Shown: positions 1 through 7,451, counted from the first letter of the stretch. The stretch is 34,108 bases of DNA from a virus (IMGVR_UViG_3300042465_002345:1-34108), one strand, 5' to 3'. The notes: generated from the sequence alone by a model not told the origin. Numbers and translations: made by a program.

Positions 1-14
1 CAAATTGTCGGGGT

Positions 15-227
15 CTACGACACCCGCCACACCCTAACTCCCTCGACTTCTTTCCTCGCTATGAACTGCATCCCTAACCGCTTGGATGCCCTGTAATTGG
101 CATTGCACACCACTTGCAATTTCCCGCTGTCCACAAAGAAACTGTCGCCAATATCCATACTGGCGTATGGATACCGCTTCTTGGCTTCAGGCAGCGGCAC
201 TGACTTCTCTACTTCTAAGTTAATCAT
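15..227 (-). CDS. DUF7303-type phage protein (left copy)
   Basis: A 70-residue protein with no signal peptide or membrane segment. It has the pattern common in small phage proteins: an N-terminal VEKSVPLPE segment, YPY followed by a GDSFFV core, and a C-terminal GVRVWRV ending; I recognise this as the DUF7303 type, of unknown function. The start is set by GAGGGAT seven bases upstream of the ATG. It is a second version of the gene at 33660-33872; the ends of the two proteins are identical and the middle differs (KRYPYASMDIG here, KRYPYKEMEIG there). If the genome is circular, this and the right copy are one locus, the first gene of the leftward late operon. Confidence 0.8.
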   Translation of the reverse strand: MINLEVEKSVPLPEAKKRYPYASMDIGDSFFVDSGKLQVVCNANYRASKRLGMQFIARKEVEGVRVWRVS

Positions 228-263
228 ATCTATCCCTCATAACCAATATACACACTATAGACG

Positions 264-292
264 AAAAAAAGGGACCCCACAAGGGAGGTCCC
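264..292 (-). terminator. Leftward intrinsic terminator
   Basis: Read on the minus strand, a GGGACC/GGTCCC stem (271-276 with 287-292, 10-base loop) is followed directly by seven U residues (264-270). It lies upstream of the gene at 15-227, so it would stop leftward transcripts arriving from the early region and insulate the late operon. The right-hand copy of this locus carries an unrelated tandem terminator at the same place. Confidence 0.7.
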
Positions 293-295
293 AAA

Positions 296-349
296 ATGAC
301 TACGCCAAGCGAGAAAGAATGCGTAGCCAACACAGAAGGAGAATCATGA
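296..349 (+). CDS. Possible 17-residue leader peptide
   Basis: A 17-codon ORF beginning MTTPSEKECV, preceded by AAGGGAGG nine bases upstream and ending in an ATGA overlap with the next small ORF (ATG at 346). The same ORF exists in the right-hand repeat (from 33981) with one Glu to Lys change. The Shine-Dalgarno site and the coupled overlap favour translation; the tiny size and lack of a family make it uncertain. Confidence 0.3.
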   Translation: MTTPSEKECVANTEGES

Positions 350-589
350 CGATTCCGAAAACGAGATTACCAGAATCTCAGAAAAACACATATTTTTTTT
401 GGGGGGAAACATGAATGGGGCACTCACCCACAGACCCCCAAGCCCCACTCAAAGGGCAACAGGCGGCGTGTCATCGTATGCAAGCTGTCAACCCCTACCC
501 AGAGTCCAGAACTGGCTAACGTAGGCAGTCTGATGCCATGCAATGCAGGTAATCAGTCATCACAGGGCGACCCAATACCCAATTGTTAA
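346..589 (+). pseudogene. Frameshifted left allele of a small ORF
   Basis: An ATG at 346 with AAGGAG upstream opens an ORF that stops at 412-414 after 22 codons. The right-hand copy of the same ATG (34031) has one base fewer near the start and stays open; if the ends are joined that frame continues from 425 to a TAA at 587-589, giving about 80 residues. In this left copy the downstream frame (RDYQNLRK, then HEWGTHPQTP, then MPCNAGNQSS) is intact but has no in-frame ATG. The frame crosses T8 and G6 runs at 393-406. An overlapping ORF in another frame, 411-524, is also open. Coding status is uncertain. Confidence 0.35.
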
Positions 590-607
590 ATCTCGGAGGG
601 CAGAGAG

Positions 608-636
608 TTGACAATCACTCAAGCTATCCGTTTAAT
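608..636 (+). promoter_or_regulatory. Early sigma70-type promoter P608
   Basis: Consensus -35 TTGACA (608-613), 17-base spacer and TTTAAT (631-636, five of six matching TATAAT). It points into the early region, with transcription expected from about 643. The -35 is followed by AATCACT, resembling the AATCTA(C/T) that follows the -35 of the other early promoters. Confidence 0.65.
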
Positions 637-639
637 GAT

Positions 640-769
640 AGGTTAGTGCTTAATATATTTAATACAGTACATACTCATACTATATAGTTATGATGTTTAT
701 ATGTTTATTATAATATATAGTAACTATGATATGTAGATAATCGATAAATAAATACAATATATTTATCCA
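640..769. other. AT-rich stretch between early promoters
   Basis: About 130 bases made almost only of A and T, without a plausible gene. It contains related short repeats, TATATAGTTATGAT near 680 and TATATAGTAACTATGAT near 713, plus several TAATATAT-type words. Such a segment could be a DNA-unwinding element or regulator-binding region; no initiator gene is recognisable in the genome, so an origin role is only an inference. Confidence 0.3.
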
Positions 770-797
770 TTGACATAATCTATATAATCACTATAAT
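770..797 (+). promoter_or_regulatory. Early sigma70-type promoter P770
   Basis: TTGACA (770-775), 16-base spacer and perfect TATAAT (792-797). Expected transcription start is about 804, giving a leader that carries the TTCCTAACC element before the ATG at 843. The spacer begins TAATCTATATAA, almost the same as in the promoter at 2823 (TAATCTACATAA), suggesting a shared regulator or duplicated promoter. Confidence 0.85.
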
Positions 798-819
798 AGG
801 TATCAGCAACAAAGAAATG

Positions 820-836
820 TTCCTAACCTTTCGGAG
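820..836 (+). promoter_or_regulatory. TTCCTAACC leader element 1
   Basis: TTCCTAACC at 820-828 followed by GGAG at 833-836 and the ATG at 843. First of five early leaders with the same nine-base word, 14 to 20 bases before a start codon. Confidence 0.6.
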
Positions 837-842
837 ATAACC

Positions 843-920
843 ATGCAATCAATCATAGATACTGTTGTCGTAATAGTTCTATCTTTATCATTTCTTAAAG
901 TTTTAACACTTTTTATTTAA
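843..920 (+). CDS. 25-residue membrane peptide
   Basis: A 25-codon gene starting MQSIIDTVVV and ending LKVLTLFI. Residues 4 to 25 are almost all hydrophobic, so it should insert as one transmembrane helix. The start is supported by GGAGATAACC directly upstream and by the TTCCTAACC leader; it is the first gene after promoter P770. No family is recognisable. Together with 932-1102, 1409-1495 and 2341-2454 it makes a set of tiny early membrane proteins, a kind often found among phage host-takeover genes, but the role here is unknown. Confidence 0.6.
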   Translation: MQSIIDTVVVIVLSLSFLKVLTLFI

Positions 921-931
921 GGAAAAACAAA

Positions 932-1102
932 ATGATTCACTTCAAAGATTCTACCGCTCTGATTTTAATTTCGATAATGTTTTTCATTCTCACAATCTTA
1001 GCCTGTCTTGGCTCTGCTCCAATACTTGGTTGTCTTGCATTATGTATTTCAGGTTTAACGATTATGGCATTCGGTTTTTATAATTTATCTAACGATAATT
1101 AA
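932..1102 (+). CDS. 56-residue two-helix membrane protein
   Basis: A 56-codon gene beginning MIHFKDSTAL. Two hydrophobic stretches, about residues 8-28 and 30-50, are separated by a short GSAP turn, so it is predicted to be a hairpin inner-membrane protein with a charged tail (NLSNDN). GGAAAAAC upstream is a weak ribosome site, and the gene lies 11 bases after the previous stop, suggesting coupling. A hairpin (1111-1129) follows. Function unknown. Confidence 0.6.
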   Translation: MIHFKDSTALILISIMFFILTILACLGSAPILGCLALCISGLTIMAFGFYNLSNDN

Positions 1103-1110
1103 ACAAAGCT

Positions 1111-1129
1111 TGCCAGAGCTTATCTGGCA
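1111..1129 (+). terminator. Weak terminator or attenuator hairpin
   Basis: Perfect seven-base inverted repeat TGCCAGA/TCTGGCA with a five-base loop, followed only by TTTCC. It sits between two early genes and directly abuts the TTTCCTAACC leader, so partial termination or RNA processing is more likely than full termination. Confidence 0.4.
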
Positions 1130-1147
1130 TTTCCTAACCTTTTGGAG
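1130..1147 (+). promoter_or_regulatory. TTCCTAACC leader element 2
   Basis: TTTCCTAACC (1130-1139), TTTT, then GGAG (1144-1147) before the ATG at 1155. Spacing between the word and GGAG is four bases, the same as in element 1. Confidence 0.6.
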
Positions 1148-1154
1148 ACTTACT

Positions 1155-1406
1155 ATGATTGCAATTCACACTAAATGCTTGCCAGTTACTAACACTCGCG
1201 GCACTCGTATCAAGGCTTACACGTCAAGCGGCTTTGAAGCAACTATTTCTTATCCATACGCTGAATCATACGAGCAAGCACACTTTCAAGCCGTAAAAGC
1301 ACTCATTGAAAAGCACAAATTAGACTGGAATCTAGACAATATGCGCTTTGGTGATAGTGCCGACGGCAAGGGCTACGTGTTCTGTTTTGACCATTCAAAG
1401 GTATAA
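1155..1406 (+). CDS. Small early protein, unknown
   Basis: An 83-residue soluble protein starting MIAIHTKCLP. The ATG at 1155 is chosen over an upstream TTG at 1110 because it is preceded by the TTCCTAACC leader and GGAG, and because the TTG lies in the hairpin. The sequence mixes a beta-like N-terminus (RIKAYTSSGFEATISYPY) with a helical middle rich in Ala and Lys, and resembles small phage proteins that act on host factors only in size and location. No motif allows a function to be assigned. Confidence 0.75.
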   Translation: MIAIHTKCLPVTNTRGTRIKAYTSSGFEATISYPYAESYEQAHFQAVKALIEKHKLDWNLDNMRFGDSADGKGYVFCFDHSKV

Positions 1407-1408
1407 CC

Positions 1409-1495
1409 ATGCCTAATTCATTTACTGAAATGTTAATGGGCTTAATTGGATTTTTAGTTCTATGGGGCTTTCTTGTTCTTTTGCTTTCTTTCTAA
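1409..1495 (+). CDS. 28-residue membrane peptide
   Basis: A 28-codon gene, MPNSFTEMLM then a continuous hydrophobic stretch to the C-terminus (LIGFLVLWGF and on), predicted to be a single transmembrane helix. It begins two bases after the previous stop codon, so translation is probably coupled. The stop region (TTTCTAAC) continues into the TAGGGGATAACC ribosome site of the next gene. Function unknown. Confidence 0.5.
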   Translation: MPNSFTEMLMGLIGFLVLWGFLVLLLSF

Positions 1496-1509
1496 CTTAG
1501 GGGATAACC

Positions 1510-1695
1510 ATGATTCAATTATCTGATGAAATATCTATCTATTGGCACTTTACTGACATTCAAGAAGTCGACGATTCATTGACTGATGATGAAGCTAGAC
1601 AAGTTTTACAGCTAATCAAAAAGAACCATGATGCAACCATTGGCATTAATTGGGACATTATTAGGGCATGGATTGATTATTTTAAAACTGTTTAG
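1510..1695 (+). CDS. 61-residue acidic early protein
   Basis: Starts MIQLSDEISI with a strong TAGGGGATAACC ribosome site. The middle is acidic (EVDDSLTDDEA) and predicted helical, and the C-terminus is aromatic (WDIIRAWIDYF). No membrane segment and no family that I recognise. Acidic small early phage proteins are often host-protein inhibitors or DNA mimics, but nothing here proves that. Confidence 0.7.
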   Translation: MIQLSDEISIYWHFTDIQEVDDSLTDDEARQVLQLIKKNHDATIGINWDIIRAWIDYFKTV

Positions 1696-1712
1696 AGACG
1701 TTTTACCACTTA

Positions 1713-1738
1713 GGGGTTACCTGACTATGGGTAACCCT
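1713..1738 (+). terminator. Hairpin after the acidic gene
   Basis: An eight-base perfect inverted repeat, GGGTTACC (1714-1721) with GGTAACCC (1730-1737), eight-base loop, followed by TATTTAAT. The tail is A/T rich but not a clean U-run, so it may be a leaky terminator or an RNA-processing site that splits the early operon. Confidence 0.45.
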
Positions 1739-1758
1739 ATTTAATCGCCGTATACGCC

Positions 1759-1776
1759 GTTTAAAGGGGTTTAAAC
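1759..1776 (+). promoter_or_regulatory. Ribosome site displayed in a hairpin loop
   Basis: GTTTAAA (1759-1765) and TTTAAAC (1770-1776) are a perfect inverted repeat whose four-base loop is the GGGG of the Shine-Dalgarno site; the ATG follows at 1777. The weak stem would sit over the initiation region and could bind a regulator or modulate initiation. Confidence 0.5.
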
Positions 1777-2022
1777 ATGGGTAAGTTAAAAAACCAAATG
1801 ATTGATATTGAATTAGAAGTCCAGAATCGGGTATTTAAACGATTAGAGACTATGAGAGACATTGAACTGTTAGCTAGTTCAGTTAATCCGGCTGTCGGGC
1901 TTTTAGAGGGCAGGGAATGGATTCCAGCAAATAATACTGATGTCACGCGCACTTGGCGTCGATTCGGCTGGCGTCCCATTGCTGAAATCAAAGCAGAAGG
2001 GAAGGAGATTAATAAAAAATGA
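1777..2022 (+). CDS. 81-residue early protein, unknown
   Basis: Starts MGKLKNQMID. The N-terminal half is predicted helical (IELEVQNRVFKRLETMRDIE) and the C-terminal half contains TRTWRRFGW, a basic aromatic segment that could contact nucleic acid. The start is fixed by AAAGGGG in the loop just upstream. It overlaps the next gene by ATGA. No family is recognised. Confidence 0.7.
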   Translation: MGKLKNQMIDIELEVQNRVFKRLETMRDIELLASSVNPAVGLLEGREWIPANNTDVTRTWRRFGWRPIAEIKAEGKEINKK

Positions 2023-2213
2023 ATGAAAAAGACATTGTGCGATTAGCAGAAGAAGCAGAGTTATGGTTGCATACCGATAGAAAGTATGAAGCTGTAGAGA
2101 AGTTTGCCAACTTAGTCGCAGCAGCAGAGCGCGAAGCGTGTGCTGTTATTGCTTTTAACGCTAAAACATACATTGAAGCAGCCGAGGCCATCCGCGCAAG
2201 GGGGCAGGGATGA
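2019..2213 (+). CDS. Small helical phage protein
   Basis: A 64-residue, almost entirely helical protein: LAEEAELW near the N-terminus, KFANLVAAAEREAC in the middle and AEAIRARG at the C-terminus. The AAAEREAC plus AIRARG pattern is widespread in small phage proteins of unknown function, often next to recombination genes. It overlaps both neighbours by ATGA, showing tight translational coupling. Confidence 0.75.
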   Translation: MNEKDIVRLAEEAELWLHTDRKYEAVEKFANLVAAAEREACAVIAFNAKTYIEAAEAIRARGQG

Positions 2214-2341
2214 GTCTACAGTGCTATCGATGCAGTATTAAATTAAAACTAGGTGAAATTTACTATAGTGATGCGCCTAACATTATTTACCATTGGAAAT
2301 GCTATATAGCGGACATGAATGAACTTTTTAAAATCAAATAA
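2210..2341 (+). CDS. 43-residue zinc-finger-like protein
   Basis: Starts MSLQCYRCSI in an ATGA overlap with the previous gene. C5 and C8 form a CxxC knuckle, and H29 with C32 (HWKC) form a second pair about 20 residues later, the spacing of a treble-clef or LIM-like zinc site. It is too small for an enzyme and is probably a nucleic-acid or protein adaptor. It shares its stop with the next start (TAATG). Confidence 0.6.
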   Translation: MSLQCYRCSIKLKLGEIYYSDAPNIIYHWKCYIADMNELFKIK

Positions 2342-2454
2342 TGCTTACTATTATTTTCACATTATTAATATCGGGGATATTTATGGGGATGGGAATAATG
2401 CTTTTGACAATCGTTGCATGGATTCTTTGGACTTTTTTAACGCCGCCTGATTGA
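2341..2454 (+). CDS. 37-residue membrane peptide
   Basis: Starts MLTIIFTLLI at a TAATG junction. Residues 2 to 34 are hydrophobic with a GIFMGMG bend near residue 15, so one long or two short transmembrane helices are expected, ending TPPD. It closes the first early operon; the TTGACA of the next promoter overlaps its last codons. Function unknown. Confidence 0.5.
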   Translation: MLTIIFTLLISGIFMGMGIMLLTIVAWILWTFLTPPD

Positions 2455-2480
2455 CAATCTACCCCCCGCGCGTGTAGATT
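2451..2480 (+). promoter_or_regulatory. Probable promoter P2451 with inverted repeat
   Basis: TTGACA (2451-2456), 18-base spacer and TAGATT (2475-2480, four of six matching). The spacer and -10 are spanned by an inverted repeat AATCTAC/GTAGATT. The -35 runs straight into AATCTAC, the word also found after the -35 of the promoters at 770 and 2823. Transcription would start near 2487, just upstream of the long hairpin. Confidence 0.45.
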
Positions 2481-2486
2481 CGGGCT

Positions 2487-2584
2487 GTTGTCGTGGAAAA
2501 CAACAAGTCAAGGCCGTTTGAATCTGTCTCTTGCCCCGCCGATAAAGGGGTTTCCACCAAGAGGCAGTTTCAAGCGGCTTTTTT
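2487..2584 (+). ncRNA. Candidate short RNA ending in a long hairpin
   Basis: If promoter P2451 is active, it would give an RNA of about 98 bases with a small hairpin (TGTTGT/ACAACA) and then the giant terminator hairpin. The loop of the latter contains CCCC and AAAGGGGTTT; the second is identical to the ribosome site of the gene at 1777, and CCCC is complementary to the GGGG ribosome sites used throughout this phage. No protein ORF with a ribosome site fits here. An sRNA or decoy role is inference. Confidence 0.35.
2511..2584 (+). terminator. Long intrinsic terminator of the first early operon
   Basis: The arm GCCGTTTGAA-T-CTGTCTCTTG (2513-2533) pairs with CAAGAGGCAG-T-TTCAAGCGGC (2558-2578): about 20 pairs with two G-U wobbles and one central T-T mismatch. 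A 24-base loop holds an inner CCCC/GGGG. Six U residues follow (2579-2584). This is much longer than a usual terminator stem and could also be an RNase III substrate. Confidence 0.8.
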
Positions 2585-2744
2585 GTTGCCCATAACAATC
2601 GCCCATTATGTCGGGGACTCAACGACAGGTAGCGGGGGACAGTCGGTACTGTGGGAAAGCGTTGAGATACCGAACATGGCGGCGAAGTCAGCACCATGAC
2701 GCGAAAGGCTGGCGAGTATGTGCGGCTCCGTCCGGCATTAAAGG
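2585..2744 (+). other. Non-coding, possibly structured region
   Basis: About 160 bases, richer in G and C than the flanks, between two long hairpins. CTCAACG (near 2618) pairs perfectly with CGTTGAG (near 2660), enclosing ACAGT-CGGT-ACTGT; an alternative CGGTA/TACCG pairing would exclude the inner stem. A 47-codon ORF from ATG 2608 has no ribosome site and I do not support it as a gene. No known riboswitch or tRNA pattern is visible. Confidence 0.35.
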
Positions 2745-2779
2745 AACTTAGTCATCCGTCTAAGGATGGCTGAGTTTTG
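2745..2779 (+). terminator. Second long hairpin with U-run
   Basis: ACTTAGTCATCC (2746-2757) pairs over all 12 positions with GGATGGCTGAGT (2764-2775), including two G-U pairs, around a six-base loop, and is followed by TTTG. It lies just upstream of promoter P2823 and would end any RNA made from the region before it. Confidence 0.6.
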
Positions 2780-2822
2780 CTCACCATCTGGCATAGGTGT
2801 AGTAAAGGGTTATGAAGATATG

Positions 2823-2851
2823 TTGACACTAATCTACATAACCTATATATT
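2823..2851 (+). promoter_or_regulatory. Strong promoter of the recombination operon, P2823
   Basis: Consensus TTGACA (2823-2828), exactly 17 bases, TATATT (2846-2851). Start expected near 2858, so the TTTCCTAACC element (2861) would be almost at the 5' end of the RNA. The spacer contains TAATCTACATAA, and CTACA/TGTAG flank the -10 as an inverted repeat, a possible operator. Confidence 0.85.
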
Positions 2852-2860
2852 GTAGTTGTA

Positions 2861-2880
2861 TTTCCTAACCATCAAAGGGG
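2861..2880 (+). promoter_or_regulatory. TTCCTAACC leader element 3
   Basis: TTTCCTAACC (2861-2870) then ATCAAAGGGG and the ATG at 2886. It begins three bases after the predicted transcription start of P2823. Confidence 0.6.
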
Positions 2881-2885
2881 TAACT

Positions 2886-3122
2886 ATGAAACTTTGCATT
2901 GACTGCAAGCATTTGAAAGACCGTAAGTGTCACCATCCCATAACTGGCATTGACTTGGTTGAAGGCGGTATCCGCACAGAAACCGCAGCCGTTATGCGTC
3001 TTGATTCTCAACTATGTAAGACCGAAGCACTATTGTTTGAAGCAATGGAGCCTGTCATCTATGACCTTGCTGCACTATTTCCAGACACCATATTTCCTAA
3101 CATCAAGGGAGAATCCCAATGA
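2886..3122 (+). CDS. Small zinc-binding early protein
   Basis: A 78-residue protein starting MKLCIDCKHL. C4 and C7, then C15 and nearby H16 and H17 (KCHHP), form a metal-binding knuckle; the CxDCKHL start followed by C(x)HP and a later Cys is a pattern common in small phage proteins. The start at 2886 is set by AAAGGGGTAACT. First gene of the recombination operon; it overlaps the next gene by ATGA, and its last codons contain another CCTAAC leader. Confidence 0.75.
   Translation: MKLCIDCKHLKDRKCHHPITGIDLVEGGIRTETAAVMRLDSQLCKTEALLFEAMEPVIYDLAALFPDTIFPNIKGESQ
3093..3110 (+). promoter_or_regulatory. TTCCTAAC leader element 4
   Basis: TTTCCTAACATCAAGGGAG lies inside the 3' end of the preceding gene, before the ATG at 3119. 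Apart from two single-base gaps it matches element 3 (TTTCCTAACCATCAAAGGGG), although here it also has to encode protein. Confidence 0.5.
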
Positions 3123-3340
3123 CCATCCAAACCATGAACCTAGAAGGTTTCAGCCCAATAAGCGTTCAAGACCTTCTTAGACCATTTGATAAGGTTGAAT
3201 ACTCAGCATTTGAAAGAAGTTTGATTGAAGAAAAAGCTCAAATGCGTGACCAGATAGAAATGCTTGAACGCGAGGTAGACCGTCAGGAAACAATCATTGA
3301 CGCTCTTGTTAAAGCAATTAAAGTTATTGAGAGAGGTTAA
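3119..3340 (+). CDS. Coiled-coil small protein
   Basis: 73 residues starting MTIQTMNLEG; residues 30-70 form a continuous charged heptad-like helix (EEKAQMRDQIEMLEREVDRQ). This implies a dimeric coiled coil. No enzymatic motif. Coupled to the previous gene by ATGA and followed two bases later by another coiled-coil gene, so the two may form a complex. Function unknown. Confidence 0.7.
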   Translation: MTIQTMNLEGFSPISVQDLLRPFDKVEYSAFERSLIEEKAQMRDQIEMLEREVDRQETIIDALVKAIKVIERG

Positions 3341-3342
3341 TC

Positions 3343-3672
3343 ATGACTACCAAACAAACACCAAAAAAGGGCAGAGGAAGACCCAAGAAGGTAGTCAACA
3401 TCCAAGATGAAAAGCTGGCTGATTTAGAAACCATCAGTAAACAAAAAAAACGTATTGATTATCTAAATGAACAAGCAATAAAACTTCATAAAGATAATGT
3501 TCAGTTTAGAAAAAAATTAGAGGAAGCTGTCAGCAAAATTGAACGTGCAAATGGTTACATTGCAGATTTAACTGAAAAACTAAAGGACGCAGAAAAAGAA
3601 ATGAATAAACAAGACAGGATTATCTTGTTGCTTTCTAAGATTTTATTCCTAACCAATGGAGGTAACATTTAA
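3343..3672 (+). CDS. AT-hook plus coiled-coil protein
   Basis: 109 residues. The N-terminus has a clear AT-hook core, GRGRPKK at residues 10-16, known to bind the minor groove of AT-rich DNA. Residues 25-95 are a long charged coiled coil, and the C-terminus (ILLLSKILFL) is hydrophobic. A dimeric AT-rich DNA binder is therefore likely; the AT-rich stretch at 640-769 is an obvious candidate target, but that link is inference. Its stop overlaps the next start (TAATG). Confidence 0.75.
   Translation: MTTKQTPKKGRGRPKKVVNIQDEKLADLETISKQKKRIDYLNEQAIKLHKDNVQFRKKLEEAVSKIERANGYIADLTEKLKDAEKEMNKQDRIILLLSKILFLTNGGNI
3645..3662 (+). promoter_or_regulatory. TTCCTAACC leader element 5
   Basis: ATTCCTAACCAATGGAGG within the end of the preceding gene, ten bases before the ATG at 3672. 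The word is retained even though it must also encode FLTNG. Confidence 0.5.
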
Positions 3673-4574
3673 TGGCTAACGCACAATCAGATTTCGCACC
3701 AGAGGTACGCAATAGCGCATGGTGGAGCGGTGACAGTAGAAAAGCAGCCAACGGTAGAGGTAATGAAGCTGTCCTAGAGAAGCTAGGATTGAAAGAGCGT
3801 CCAGACCTGTCTCAAGTGGAAGCTGTCCAAATGGGTCACGTTATGCAGCCAACTATCGGCAGACTAGCCCAAGACAAGTTAAAGATTGAATTGAAGGACG
3901 CCGACTATGCTCTTACACATCCGAAAGAGGAATGGCTTAAATCTCACTTTGACTTTATCTCTGCCGACGGCAAGGTACTTGTTGAAGCGAAAAATTACAA
4001 CGCTGCGGTACGCAACAAATTCGATGCAGAAGCCCTTATCATCCCTCCGGCTGATATGGCGCAGCTTATTCATGAAGCTGCTTGCCATAACGTGCAAAAG
4101 ATTGTCCTTGCAGTCCTATTCGGTGGGCAAAACTTTGAGACGTTCGAGTTTAATATTTCCGAAGCTCAAAAAGAGGAACTAATCAAAGATATGGCTAAGT
4201 TTTGGGGTGCTGTAGCCACTAAAACACCCCTAGAAGCTGAAAACACCGAGCAGACCAAGCTCATCTACGCCCAAGATGCCGGAACGTCTGTAGTGGCTCC
4301 TCAGCCGATTGAGAAAGCAGCCGAAGCTCTGAAGTTTATTAAAGATGAAATCAAGCGTCTTGAGGAAAAAGAGGAGCATCTGGTAACAGCGTTGCAAAAC
4401 CATATGCAATGGAGTTCTGAATTAGTATCTTTCGATGGAAAAGTTCTCGCTACATGGAAAAACAGCAAAGGCAGCAAACGATTCGACGCTAAGTTATTCC
4501 AAGCCCAACACCCCGACATTTACGAGAAGTTTGTCTCGGAAACGGCAGGTTCTCGCCGCTTCTTACTCAAGTGA
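3672..4574 (+). CDS. YqaJ-like phage exonuclease
   Basis: A 300-residue member of the YqaJ/lambda-exonuclease type of PD-(D/E)XK nucleases, which digest one strand of linear double-stranded DNA for recombination. Visible are the N-terminal GRGNEAVLEKLGL region, D94 in HFDF, E105 and K107 in VEAKN (the ExK core), and Q131 in QLIHEA followed by a beta strand LAVLFGG. The usual Glu of the helix-1 motif is replaced by Gln in MGHVMQP. The C-terminal third is an extra helical domain (DEIKRLEEKEEHL). It lies two genes upstream of a RecT-like protein, the classic exonuclease and annealase pairing. Confidence 0.85.
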   Translation: MANAQSDFAPEVRNSAWWSGDSRKAANGRGNEAVLEKLGLKERPDLSQVEAVQMGHVMQPTIGRLAQDKLKIELKDADYALTHPKEEWLKSHFDFISADGKVLVEAKNYNAAVRNKFDAEALIIPPADMAQLIHEAACHNVQKIVLAVLFGGQNFETFEFNISEAQKEELIKDMAKFWGAVATKTPLEAENTEQTKLIYAQDAGTSVVAPQPIEKAAEALKFIKDEIKRLEEKEEHLVTALQNHMQWSSELVSFDGKVLATWKNSKGSKRFDAKLFQAQHPDIYEKFVSETAGSRRFLLK

Positions 4575-4581
4575 GGCTGAT

Positions 4582-4776
4582 ATGTTTGCTTATCCTTCTG
4601 GACACAATCCAAAAACAGGTACGCAAGAATCAGGGATGAAATTGCGTGATTACTTTGCTGCTGCTGCCCTGACAGGGATGCTTGCTGAGAACGGTGGCGG
4701 TGCTTTACATAACCAAGAACTAGCCGAGTTTGCATACAAGCTCGCAGATGCCATGATGGAAGTGAGGGACTTATGA
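4582..4776 (+). CDS. Small phage protein between exonuclease and RecT
   Basis: 64 residues starting MFAYPSGHNP. The C-terminal half, LRDYFAAAALTGMLA then AYKLADAMMEVR, is a helical pattern frequent in small proteins of phage recombination regions; function is not established. GAGG sits seven bases before the ATG, and the gene overlaps the RecT-like gene by ATGA. Confidence 0.75.
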   Translation: MFAYPSGHNPKTGTQESGMKLRDYFAAAALTGMLAENGGGALHNQELAEFAYKLADAMMEVRDL

Positions 4777-5570
4777 CAGCCTTAGTGCCAATAAATGAGA
4801 TACGCGAAATGGCTGAAGTTGCAGCCAAGAGCAAGATGTTCGGCTTTAAATCGACTGAGGAAGCAATGGCTATCATGCTCCTCTGCCAAGCTGAAAATAT
4901 GCACCCTGCTATTGCTATGAGGGATTTTCATGTCATACAAGGACGCCCTGCTTTGAAGGCTGATGCCATGCTTGGACGTTTCCAGCAAGCCGGTGGTTCA
5001 GTCAAATGGGAGGAATACACGGATGAAAGAGTTATTGGTACTTTTTCTCACCCCAATGGCGGGTCTGTTACTGTCACTTGGACATTCGAGATGGCAAAGA
5101 GAATCGGACTTACGTCTAAAGATAACTGGAAGAATTACGCCAGAGCTATGCTCAGAGCCAGATGCGTTTCCGAAGGGGTTAGAACAGTTTATCCGTCGTG
5201 CGTCGTTGGAGTTTACACGCCAGAAGAAGTTGAGACGTTCAAAACGCCTAGCCCGACTGTCAAGGACATGGGCGAAGCGGAAATCGTTATTGAGGAACCG
5301 GTAAGCGAGTATCAGCTATTCCTGCCTGACGGTAGCGTTTACGCTAATTGCACTGATTGGCAAGACTATATCGAGCGTTATGTAGCCATGCTTGACGCTA
5401 TCGAGAATTCGCCGAAGCTAAAGAAAGAAGAAAAGTCAGAAAAGCGAAAAACTTGGGAGGCGGGGAACGCTGACGCAATTAAGCGCATGGATGCTGTGAC
5501 CAAGACACAATTTATAGCAGCCAAACAAGGTGTAGATACCTTTGCAGACTTGGAGGACGCTATTGAATAA
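4773..5570 (+). CDS. RecT-like single-strand annealing protein
   Basis: 265 residues. The core MHPAIAMRDFHVIQGRPALK, followed by ADAMLGRFQQAGG and WKNYARAMLRARCVSEGVR, is characteristic of RecT-family annealases; RecT proteins anneal single strands produced by the partner exonuclease. Residues 1 to about 165 are the RecT domain; the rest is an acidic then Lys-rich tail, compatible with partner binding. Being coded close to the YqaJ-like nuclease supports the assignment. Possible roles are genome circularisation, recombination-driven replication and gene exchange. Confidence 0.88.
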   Translation: MTALVPINEIREMAEVAAKSKMFGFKSTEEAMAIMLLCQAENMHPAIAMRDFHVIQGRPALKADAMLGRFQQAGGSVKWEEYTDERVIGTFSHPNGGSVTVTWTFEMAKRIGLTSKDNWKNYARAMLRARCVSEGVRTVYPSCVVGVYTPEEVETFKTPSPTVKDMGEAEIVIEEPVSEYQLFLPDGSVYANCTDWQDYIERYVAMLDAIENSPKLKKEEKSEKRKTWEAGNADAIKRMDAVTKTQFIAAKQGVDTFADLEDAIE

Positions 5571-5585
5571 TTTCCGGCATACCTC

Positions 5586-5603
5586 GCCCCAAAGCATCGG
5601 GGC
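5586..5603 (+). terminator. Short hairpin after the RecT-like gene
   Basis: GCCCC/GGGGC with an eight-base loop, followed by ATTTCT. Too short and U-poor to be a confident terminator; it may reduce expression of the downstream genes. Confidence 0.3.
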
Positions 5604-5631
5604 ATTTCTACCCAAAATAAAGGAACCAATA

Positions 5632-5913
5632 ATGAGTGAAGCAAAAGAATACACAAAGTTTATTCCCCAAGAACTGAAGGGGCGTATTACGCATAACAAA
5701 TACAAACAGAAGGATACCGACCCCGACCTAAAGGGAACCCTGTGCGTCAAAGGCCAGATAGTGAATTTCGGTATCTGGAAGAATGATGGACCTCATGGCG
5801 AATACTTCAACATCAAGGTATCTGACCCTGATTGGAAGGATAAGCAGAAGGATTCTCAGTATCCAAAAGAGATAACGCCAAAGAATAAGATGGCTGGCGA
5901 TATTCCTTGGTAA
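5632..5913 (+). CDS. Unknown protein in the recombination operon
   Basis: 93 residues starting MSEAKEYTKF; the ATG at 5632 follows AAAGGAACC. The middle, TLCVKGQIVNFGIWKNDGPH then EYFNIKVSDPDWK, looks like alternating beta strands, which would suit a small OB-type single-strand-binding protein, a gene often found between RecT and a resolvase. That is an inference from position and predicted strands only. The acidic tail typical of SSB is missing; the protein ends GDIPW. The stop overlaps the next start (TAATG). Confidence 0.7.
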   Translation: MSEAKEYTKFIPQELKGRITHNKYKQKDTDPDLKGTLCVKGQIVNFGIWKNDGPHGEYFNIKVSDPDWKDKQKDSQYPKEITPKNKMAGDIPW

Positions 5914-6296
5914 TGCACGTATGGCTTGAGTTGCCGTTCCCGCCTTCAATGAATACTTATTGGAGGAACTTTAGAGGGAGAACTGTTCTCTCAAAGAATG
6001 GACGGCAATTCAAGATAGCTGTGCAGGACTACATCATTGAAAAGAACATTCCTAAATTTGGGGACAAGAAGTTGAAGATAACAATGATTTTGCGCCCTAG
6101 AGATAAGAGGAAAATTGACATCGATAACCGGATTAAGGCAGTCCTAGACAGCCTTCAAGACGCAGGGGTTTTCGATGATGATTTTCAGGTAGACCACATT
6201 GAGATGATTCGAGGAGAACAAATCAAGGGTGGCCTTATACGGGTTTTGATTGAAGAATTACCAGACCCCCGTCAGACCGAAGGCGAGTCCCTCTGA
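5913..6296 (+). CDS. rusA: RusA-like Holliday junction resolvase
   Basis: 127 residues from the ATG in the TAATG junction at 5913. RusA-family resolvases cut four-way junctions and branched phage DNA before packaging. The N-terminal PFPPSMNTYWRN, the RPRDKRKIDIDN segment with D69, D71 and N72, and AVLDSLQDAGVFDDD with acidic residues around D90 match the RusA catalytic set. Length is normal for the family. It completes an exonuclease, annealase and resolvase set. Confidence 0.9.
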   Translation: MHVWLELPFPPSMNTYWRNFRGRTVLSKNGRQFKIAVQDYIIEKNIPKFGDKKLKITMILRPRDKRKIDIDNRIKAVLDSLQDAGVFDDDFQVDHIEMIRGEQIKGGLIRVLIEELPDPRQTEGESL

Positions 6297-6360
6297 GGAC
6301 AGGTTAGGAACGCTTGGGCAACGTTTCGGTCAGCCCACTAATTCAACTAAAGGGGATTAC

Positions 6361-7101
6361 ATGAATAAGCATCTATTTGTCGCCACACCAATGTACGGCG
6401 GTTTATGTTACGGCTTTTACACGCAATCGTGCTTACAGCTTCAAATGCTGTGCAAGAACGCAAACATGAATGTGAGCTTTTCCTATTTGTTTAACGAATC
6501 ATTGATTCAACGGGCTAGAAACCTGCTAGTGCATCATTTTCTAAAGTCTGATGCTACTCATATGATGTTTATTGATGCTGACATCAGGTTCAATCCAAAC
6601 GACATTTTCCCGATGTTGGAAGCCGACAAAGACATCCTCTGCGGCATCTACCCAAAGAAAGAAATCAACTGGCAAACCGTCCGTAACGCAATTTCTGCCG
6701 GTGTAACCAATGAGCAGCTAAAAAACCATACAGGGGCGTTTGTAGTCAATCTGGTGGACTATCAAACCGAGGTCACAGTGCCGGTTAATCAGCCGGTTGA
6801 GATTTGGAACGGTGGCACAGGATTCATGTTGATTAAGCGTGAAGTTATTGAGGGTTTAATCGGGAAAGTGCCGATGTACTTAAATAACGTGTTGGACTTG
6901 CAGAGCAACCAGAACGGCGAAACCATCCATGAGTTCTTTGCTACGCAGATTGAGCCAGAATCCAAGTTATTGCTGTCCGAGGACTACGATTTCTGCAAAA
7001 AGGCTAGAAACAACGGATACAAGGTATGGGCAGCTCCTTGGGTGCAATTAGCCCACGTTGGCACCTACGCATTTGAAGGCACTTTGCTACAAACGCCATG
7101 A
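6361..7101 (+). CDS. GT-A type glycosyltransferase
   Basis: 246 residues from ATG 6361, which follows AAAGGGGATTAC. The sequence HMMFIDADIRF (DxD at 72-74) after a helical VHHFLKSDAT segment, the GTGFMLIKR block and LLSEDYDFCKKARNNGYKVW near the C-terminus are typical of GT-A glycosyltransferases of the kind many phages carry. It should bind a nucleotide sugar and a metal ion. The acceptor is unknown: host surface, virion protein or modified DNA are all possible. It is the second-to-last gene of the rightward operon and overlaps the next by ATGA. Confidence 0.85.
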   Translation: MNKHLFVATPMYGGLCYGFYTQSCLQLQMLCKNANMNVSFSYLFNESLIQRARNLLVHHFLKSDATHMMFIDADIRFNPNDIFPMLEADKDILCGIYPKKEINWQTVRNAISAGVTNEQLKNHTGAFVVNLVDYQTEVTVPVNQPVEIWNGGTGFMLIKREVIEGLIGKVPMYLNNVLDLQSNQNGETIHEFFATQIEPESKLLLSEDYDFCKKARNNGYKVWAAPWVQLAHVGTYAFEGTLLQTP

Positions 7102-7451
7102 TGCGCGATAAGTACGCTCCCCATGTTGATTTTGGGGAGTTGTCCGGCTTGCTTGGCAAGGTTTTGCCGTCAAATCTAGATATGGTCCTAGAACGCAAGG
7201 GACACTTCCTATTCGGCGAGTGGAAGCGAGACGGGGAGAAGATAAGCAAAGGCCAAGAAATCCTCTTAAAAGCCCTCTCAGGGCTTCCTAGGGCTACTGT
7301 TTTAGTGATTAATGGTGATACTGATAATGGGATGCGTGTAGAGCGTTTCTGGAGGATTTTGCCGGACGGCAGCTACACCCAATCCGGCAAAGGCTTAATA
7401 GAGTTTAAAGACTATATTACTGAATGGTACTTAGTAGCTGATATAGGATAA
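7098..7451 (+). CDS. PD-(D/E)XK nuclease-like protein
   Basis: 117 residues. D28, then FLFGEWKR with E41 and K43, then SKGQEILLKAL with Q53, and a following hydrophobic strand (RATVLVI) reproduce the order of a VRR-NUC or related PD-(D/E)XK fold. The rest (VERFWRILPDGSY) is unlike known families that I can name. Last gene of the rightward operon, its stop inside the terminator hairpin. The nuclease call is motif-based and moderately sure only; a non-catalytic relative is possible. Confidence 0.55.
   Translation: MMRDKYAPHVDFGELSGLLGKVLPSNLDMVLERKGHFLFGEWKRDGEKISKGQEILLKALSGLPRATVLVINGDTDNGMRVERFWRILPDGSYTQSGKGLIEFKDYITEWYLVADIG

Follow-up and report, generated by a model that had tools for sequence, protein, structure and literature searches.

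A start tag of early genes and a complementary pseudoknotted RNA: probable RNA-RNA control in a family of uncultured freshwater phages

The window analyzed here, a 34,108-nucleotide stretch of viral DNA (IMGVR_UViG_3300042465_002345:1-34108), carries a short start tag, TTCCTAAC(C), in front of six early start codons and, at 6266-6336, a structured RNA that contains the complement of this tag. Because the tag and the complementary junction of the RNA change together across a family of uncultured freshwater phages, it is very probable (roughly 85% by our estimate, a figure that pertains to the pairing system and not to the sign of its effect) that early genes in this family are controlled by RNA-RNA pairing encoded by the phage itself. 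The tags and two promoter-like sites, each with the adjacent open reading frames (ORFs) where applicable, are the following:

770..797, plus strand: promoter-like site with 12 of 12 consensus bases, 5' of tag 1
820..828, plus strand: tag 1, TTCCTAACC, preceding the ORF at 843-920 (25 amino acids, membrane-like; ATG at 843)
1131..1139, plus strand: tag 2, TTCCTAACC, directly 3' of the hairpin GCCAGAGCTTATCTGGC and preceding the ORF at 1155-1406
1489..1496, plus strand: tag 3, a weak copy, TTTCTAAC (TTTCTAACT at 1489), preceding the ORF at 1510-1695
2823..2851, plus strand: promoter-like site with 11 of 12 consensus bases, 5' of tag 4
2862..2870, plus strand: tag 4, TTCCTAACC, shortly 3' of the preceding promoter-like site and preceding the ORF at 2886-3122
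3094..3101, plus strand: tag 5, TTCCTAAC (TTCCTAACA at 3094), within the ORF at 2886-3122 and preceding the ORF at 3119-3340
3646..3654, plus strand: tag 6, TTCCTAACC, within the ORF at 3343-3672 and preceding the RecE-like exonuclease ORF at 3672-4574

The tags are located 13-17 bases 5' of the respective ATG codons (843, 1155, 1510, 2886, 3119 and 3672), with a GGAG or GGGG Shine-Dalgarno (SD) site directly 3' of each. The six leader words reported in the initial annotation are all present, as exact copies at 820, 1131, 2862 and 3646 and as variants at 3094 and 1489; the two copies that it placed in preceding coding sequence are tags 5 and 6, and a third, tag 3, overlaps the 3' end of the ORF at 1409-1495. 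Sites with at most one mismatch to the tag number 13 in the window compared to 7.4 +- 2.3 in shuffled sequences, and none of the 100 shuffles reaches 13. The early (plus) strand encodes, in addition to the exonuclease, a RecT-like annealing protein, an SSB-like protein, RusA and a glycosyltransferase-like protein.

The association with start codons extends to related phages. An exonuclease search in IMG/VR yielded 447 related stretches, the best 80 of which were kept as relatives; these loci were picked by protein similarity, independently of the tag word. Among the 80 relatives, TTTCCTAAC is the commonest 9-mer by the number of distinct contexts, with 119 on the plus strand versus 3 on the minus strand, and 89% of its copies are found 18-31 nucleotides 5' of an SD-preceded ATG, against a background of 4%; for words of the form TTCCTAAC[CTA], the respective range is 84-97%. 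The genes located 3' of the tags in these relatives are of many different kinds. In seven near-complete genomes, the 8-nucleotide tag is present in 32 of the 104 early-strand leaders and in none of the 256 late-strand leaders (P=1e-19). The core of the tag is (T)TCCTAAC, with the SD site lying outside the tag; the median distance from the end of the tag is 4 nucleotides to the SD site and 16 nucleotides to the start codon. The former distance would fit an extended ribosome-binding site or S1 enhancer read by the ribosomes of the host, but the late genes of the same phages lack the tag altogether and the word changes from one phage lineage to the next along with the phage RNA, so that we regard this explanation as very improbable. 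A collection-wide scan for the combination of tag, SD site and ATG listed matches that, by our estimate, are mostly due to chance, and served only as the source of L059 and a few of its kin.

The second half of the putative system is a conserved RNA that is represented in the window by one strong copy. The initial annotation was correct in placing the exact reverse complement of the tag at 6302-6310, and the antisense pairing that it considered imaginable is now strongly supported, given that this complement lies exposed in the junction of a pseudoknotted RNA that is conserved, and that it covaries with the leader word. The hand-built model of the fold consists of the following elements:

6266..6336, plus strand: double-pseudoknot RNA, conserved (covariance-model match at 6262-6352)
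6270..6285, plus strand: hairpin P0 (6270-6273 with 6282-6285), 3 of 4 pairs changed on both sides
6275..6281 with 6325..6331, plus strand: helix P1, the first pseudoknot, formed by the P0 loop, 7 of 7 pairs changed on both sides
6287..6300, plus strand: hairpin P2 (6287-6290 with 6297-6300), 3 of 4 pairs changed on both sides
6302..6310, plus strand: junction J, GGTTAGGAA, modelled as unpaired except for the last A, exact complement of the tags
6310..6336, plus strand: hairpin P3 (6310-6312 with 6322-6324) and the second pseudoknot (loop 6316-6319 with 6333-6336), with covariation

In an alignment of 46 different sequences from the region 5' of the glycosyltransferase gene, GTTAGGAA lies within a block of visible compensatory changes. 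In the main clade, the fold comprises 25 pairs with 96.1% paired cells, and 15 pairs are changed on both sides, compared to 8.8 for shuffled alignments and at most 8 for slid ones. A separate alignment of a second, divergent clade gives 98.6% paired cells with 10 of the 25 pairs changed on both sides, far above the slid and shuffled controls, and in this clade the second pseudoknot covaries as well (GCCAGC/GCUGGC versus GGUGGC/GCCACC). Taken by itself, the RNA shows no significant minimum-energy fold (z 0.44), as expected given that the folding program cannot form pseudoknots, and covariation counts were used instead. No Rfam family reaches its curated threshold on the structured RNA, either in the window or in five divergent relatives. 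The predicted structure would add a new family, absent from Rfam.

The RusA gene ends within the RNA (stop codon at 6294-6296), which itself ends about 24 nucleotides before the glycosyltransferase start at 6361. In relatives, the overlap with RusA is usual, and in many of them, as in the window, the glycosyltransferase gene is directly 3' of the RNA. This arrangement would be expected of a riboswitch or leader element that acts on the glycosyltransferase gene and whose ligand-binding junction happens to be complementary to the tag. However, other genes are located 3' of the RNA in L288, L318 and L371, a methyltransferase-like insert separates the RNA from RusA in some relatives, and the junction changes together with the leaders; the riboswitch explanation was accordingly rejected as highly improbable. 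The gene insertions between RusA and the RNA, together with the varying 3' genes, instead indicate that the RNA is a module of its own. The methyltransferase-like gene is found between RusA and the RNA in L129, L142, L149 and L168, where the RNA is retained further 3'. Shortened RNAs lacking P2, with GGUUAGGAAG as the junction, are present in L348 (9365-9446) and L366 (3119-3198) and may define a minimal form. Transfer RNA genes are located just 5' of the structured RNA in L270 (8487-8560) and L280 (8434-8506).

The key evidence for pairing comes from the comparison of junctions and tags between lineages. Without recourse to the leaders, the RNA was located in the GenBank record MW202753 and 105 other loci; of these 106, the final test could use 102. 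In the main clade, the junction is GUUAGGAA and the leader tag is TTCCTAAC. The corresponding junctions and leaders are GUUAGGUA and (T)ACCTAAC (TACCTAAC) in L340, L303, L322 and their kin; GUUAGGAC and GTCCTAACT (GTCCTAAC) in L285 and its kin; GUUAGAA and TTCTAAC in L296 and L381; CGUUAAGAA and TTCTTAACG, the latter in three leaders, in L392; AGUUAGUUAG and CTAACTAACT in L389; and GAGUUAGG and CCTAACTC in L260 and L245. The independent record MW202753, which was inspected after the hypothesis had been formed, contains the junction AGUUAGGACACUU and two leaders with GTCCTAACT, in agreement with the pairing rule. At the base that follows GUUAGG in the RNA, A is accompanied by T in the leader in 83 of 89 cases, and U by A in 43 of 46.

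This complementarity is confined to the junction. When RNA 8-mers were taken at 90 offsets along the RNA and its flanks, complements in the leaders of the same locus numbered 16, 37 and 30 at junction offsets -2 to 0 and between 0 and 5 elsewhere. Complements of the junction are concentrated in leaders (51 in 10 kb) compared to the other 149 kb (23 sites), and the minus strand has none. In a permutation test with one representative from each of 36 exonuclease clusters (85% identity), 88 leaders contain a run of at least 8 pairs to their own junction, compared to 38.5 +- 6.4 for permuted junctions (P=5e-6); with one representative for each of 15 distinct junction 9-mers, 35 leaders have at least 8 pairs, compared to 9.4 +- 3.9 (P=5e-6); and for ten clusters at 70% identity, the P values are 0.004 and 0.0005. 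In the test with 15 junction types, the observed match was never reached when junctions were permuted among lineages. The leader tag thus tends to be complementary to the junction of its own lineage, and the comparison shows the predicted pairing between J and the tag to be under selection.

The same evidence bears on explanations in which the tag is recognized by a protein. The tag could be the site of a phage RNA-binding protein acting as a translational repressor, or an RNase site, as also suggested in the initial annotation, in which case the complement in the RNA would be a decoy or due to chance. The position 5' of the SD site and the restriction to early genes are compatible with such a site, which nevertheless predicts neither that the exact complement falls in the single unpaired junction that is invariant in the conserved RNA nor that junction and tag change jointly from lineage to lineage; we consider it very improbable. 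A DNA operator would account for both the reverse-complement copy and the concerted change: a phage repressor would bind the TTCCTAAC duplex, the complement would be a single inverted site close to where the operon ends, and all sites would drift with the protein. The leader copies, however, are all in one orientation and in a fixed place relative to the SD site and the AUG, many of them without a promoter, and the supposed inverted copy is an unpaired junction of an RNA fold under strong covariation, which makes an operator very improbable.

Several observations weigh against the pairing hypothesis or limit its support. The leaders were derived with a simple rule of an ORF plus an SD site, and GUUAG served as the anchor for most junctions. 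On the exonuclease tree, the change from A to U after GUUAGG counts only once; the junction 7-mer requires at least 4 changes (in the first data set, which L392, L389 and L390 joined later), and the independent-pairs tree test found only one usable pair. L276, L278 and L280 retain the junction GUUAGGAAA but their leaders read AACTAAC, perhaps reflecting a mosaic origin, and the match is only partial in L206/L207, L059, L247, L268/L270 and L390/L402. In favor of pairing, by contrast, there is no match to the RNA in MW202825, L250 and L259, and there are almost no tags. A wider co-absence of RNA and tags was dropped because most of the loci initially counted as lacking the RNA are cases where it is displaced by an inserted gene, so that only these three stand as lacking both. 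In L243 and L244, a very diverged candidate RNA that the covariance model does not match is located 3' of RusA, with AUUAGGAG where GUUAGGAA is expected; several leaders in these loci read TTCCTAAT, which could be a further compensatory change.

Under the mechanism that we propose, the tag would serve as the target and the junction of the RNA at 6266-6336 as the guide in a two-part system that likely controls translation. P0, P2 and P3, closed by the two pseudoknots, would leave GUUAGGA single-stranded between P2 and P3, and this exposed strand is predicted to form 8-10 base pairs with the UUCCUAAC tags a few bases 5' of the SD sites of several early genes. No promoter-like site was found just 5' of the structured RNA, whereas sites with 12 and 11 of 12 consensus bases are present at 770-797 and 2823-2851; we infer from this that the early transcript gives rise to the RNA from its 3' part and that the RNA acts on early mRNAs. 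The sign is most likely repression, that is, early shut-off, to which we give about an even chance, because an RNA bound to the tag so close to the SD site and the start codon should hinder 30S binding; it would function as a feedback timer that shuts down translation initiation of early genes as soon as transcription has reached the end of the early operon.

Folding calculations hint weakly in the opposite direction. The same pairing could activate if the CCU of the tag folds onto its own GGAG or AGGGG SD site and the RNA captures the tag, freeing the SD site and turning early genes on. The predicted unpaired probability of the SD site is 0.31 in tagged versus 0.42 in untagged leaders (P=4e-7) and rises to 0.49 with the tag blocked; blocking lifts accessibility by 0.175 compared to 0.063 for pseudo-tags (P=7e-9), and the RNA IsrK of prophage Gifsy-1, which is reported to expose a ribosome-binding site in trans, provides a precedent (PMC4825925). 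The effect is modest, however, with shuffled tags already at 0.35; tags without CC (TTCTAAC, CTAACTAAC and TTCTTAAC) retain complementarity to the RNA but not to the SD site; and the RNA is downstream of the genes that it would have to start. Activation is therefore a possible but doubtful sign, and the remaining weight beyond repression and activation goes to other outcomes such as mRNA decay. More speculatively, the pairing system might constitute a one-to-many RNA code, in which a double-pseudoknot guide recognizes the start tag of many early genes and lineages re-tune both halves; it could equally be a translation-recruiting RNA, a phage-made ribosome accessory that selects tagged mRNAs.

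Base-pair covariation in trans makes the function of the tag directly testable through natural matched and mismatched pairs. If the proposed pairing is real, a widespread group of uncultured phages would contain a new family of structured RNAs, early genes could be switched jointly by a compact device made of RNA only, and the lineages would offer a natural collection of orthogonal tag/guide pairs.

Among the other features of the window, the only Rfam family that reaches its threshold is RF02932 (Betaproteobacteria-1 RNA), at 2600-2717 on the plus strand in the early region (92 bits); it is also found in the relatives L148, L280 and L285. This match suggests that the host is probably a betaproteobacterium and that this small RNA family travels with phages. 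A host scan of genome contigs found nothing. Two very similar 70-amino-acid ORFs are located at the ends of the contig (15-227 and 33660-33872, both on the minus strand; MINLEVEKSVPLPE...), which might reflect the divergence of a terminal repeat or the joining of two strain variants.

Finally, the tag and its RNA can be compared with known phage systems. The start-associated words (SAS) of cluster K mycobacteriophages, GGGATAGGAGCCC, include the SD site and are located 3-7 base pairs from the start; SAS and the associated ESAS are described as short asymmetric words in one orientation, found almost only before the starts of non-structural genes, in unrelated families, with no partner described and function unknown, and the ESAS includes a 17-base-pair inverted repeat just 5' of about half of the SAS sites (PMC3203893). 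The tag studied here resembles SAS in its single orientation and in its association with early, non-structural starts, but differs from the SAS word in that it excludes the SD site, is located further from the start and has a complementary structured RNA. The ESAS repeat has no counterpart at these tags: no common 17-base-pair repeat was seen in the tag contexts of the relatives, and upstream hairpins, although striking by eye, were rejected as a shared feature, their frequency being 0.42 before tagged versus 0.44 before untagged starts.

Like the phage antisense RNAs P4 CI and P1/P7 C4 (PMC4825925, PMC10111431, PMC2864571), the RNA described here is a small, phage-encoded structure with a short exposed strand, predicted to pair with RNA of the same phage; for P4 CI, processing from a longer transcript has been reported (PMC4825925). 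As in C4 and CI, the strand is complementary to its own target, here the leaders, together with which it changes. No match to the C4 model (Rfam RF01695) was obtained at E values up to 5 in positions 1-7200 of the window or up to 0.5 in five divergent relatives. C4 and CI control immunity, C4 by blocking translation of ant and P4 CI by terminating transcription at seqA/seqC near its own locus. The junction of the present RNA would address several tagged genes and belongs to a different, double-pseudoknot fold. P22 sar, lambda OOP, phi24B 24B_1 and VP882 VpdS are likewise phage-encoded pairing regulators, which, as presented in section 2 of a 2025 review (PMC12197685), have either a single phage target or host RNAs as targets, and no repeated early start tag is used by any of them; IsrK acts at a single locus and has a different structure (PMC4825925). 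A one-to-many start-tag system does not appear among the phage RNAs in that section of the review or in targeted full-text literature searches, the coverage of which mostly leaves out subscription papers and bioRxiv. By sequence or model, the system belongs neither to SAS, which it resembles, nor to the P4 CI and P1 C4 RNAs, whose mode of action it would share. Phages have been known since 2011 to carry start-associated words, for which there was no partner; on comparative grounds, such a partner is found here.

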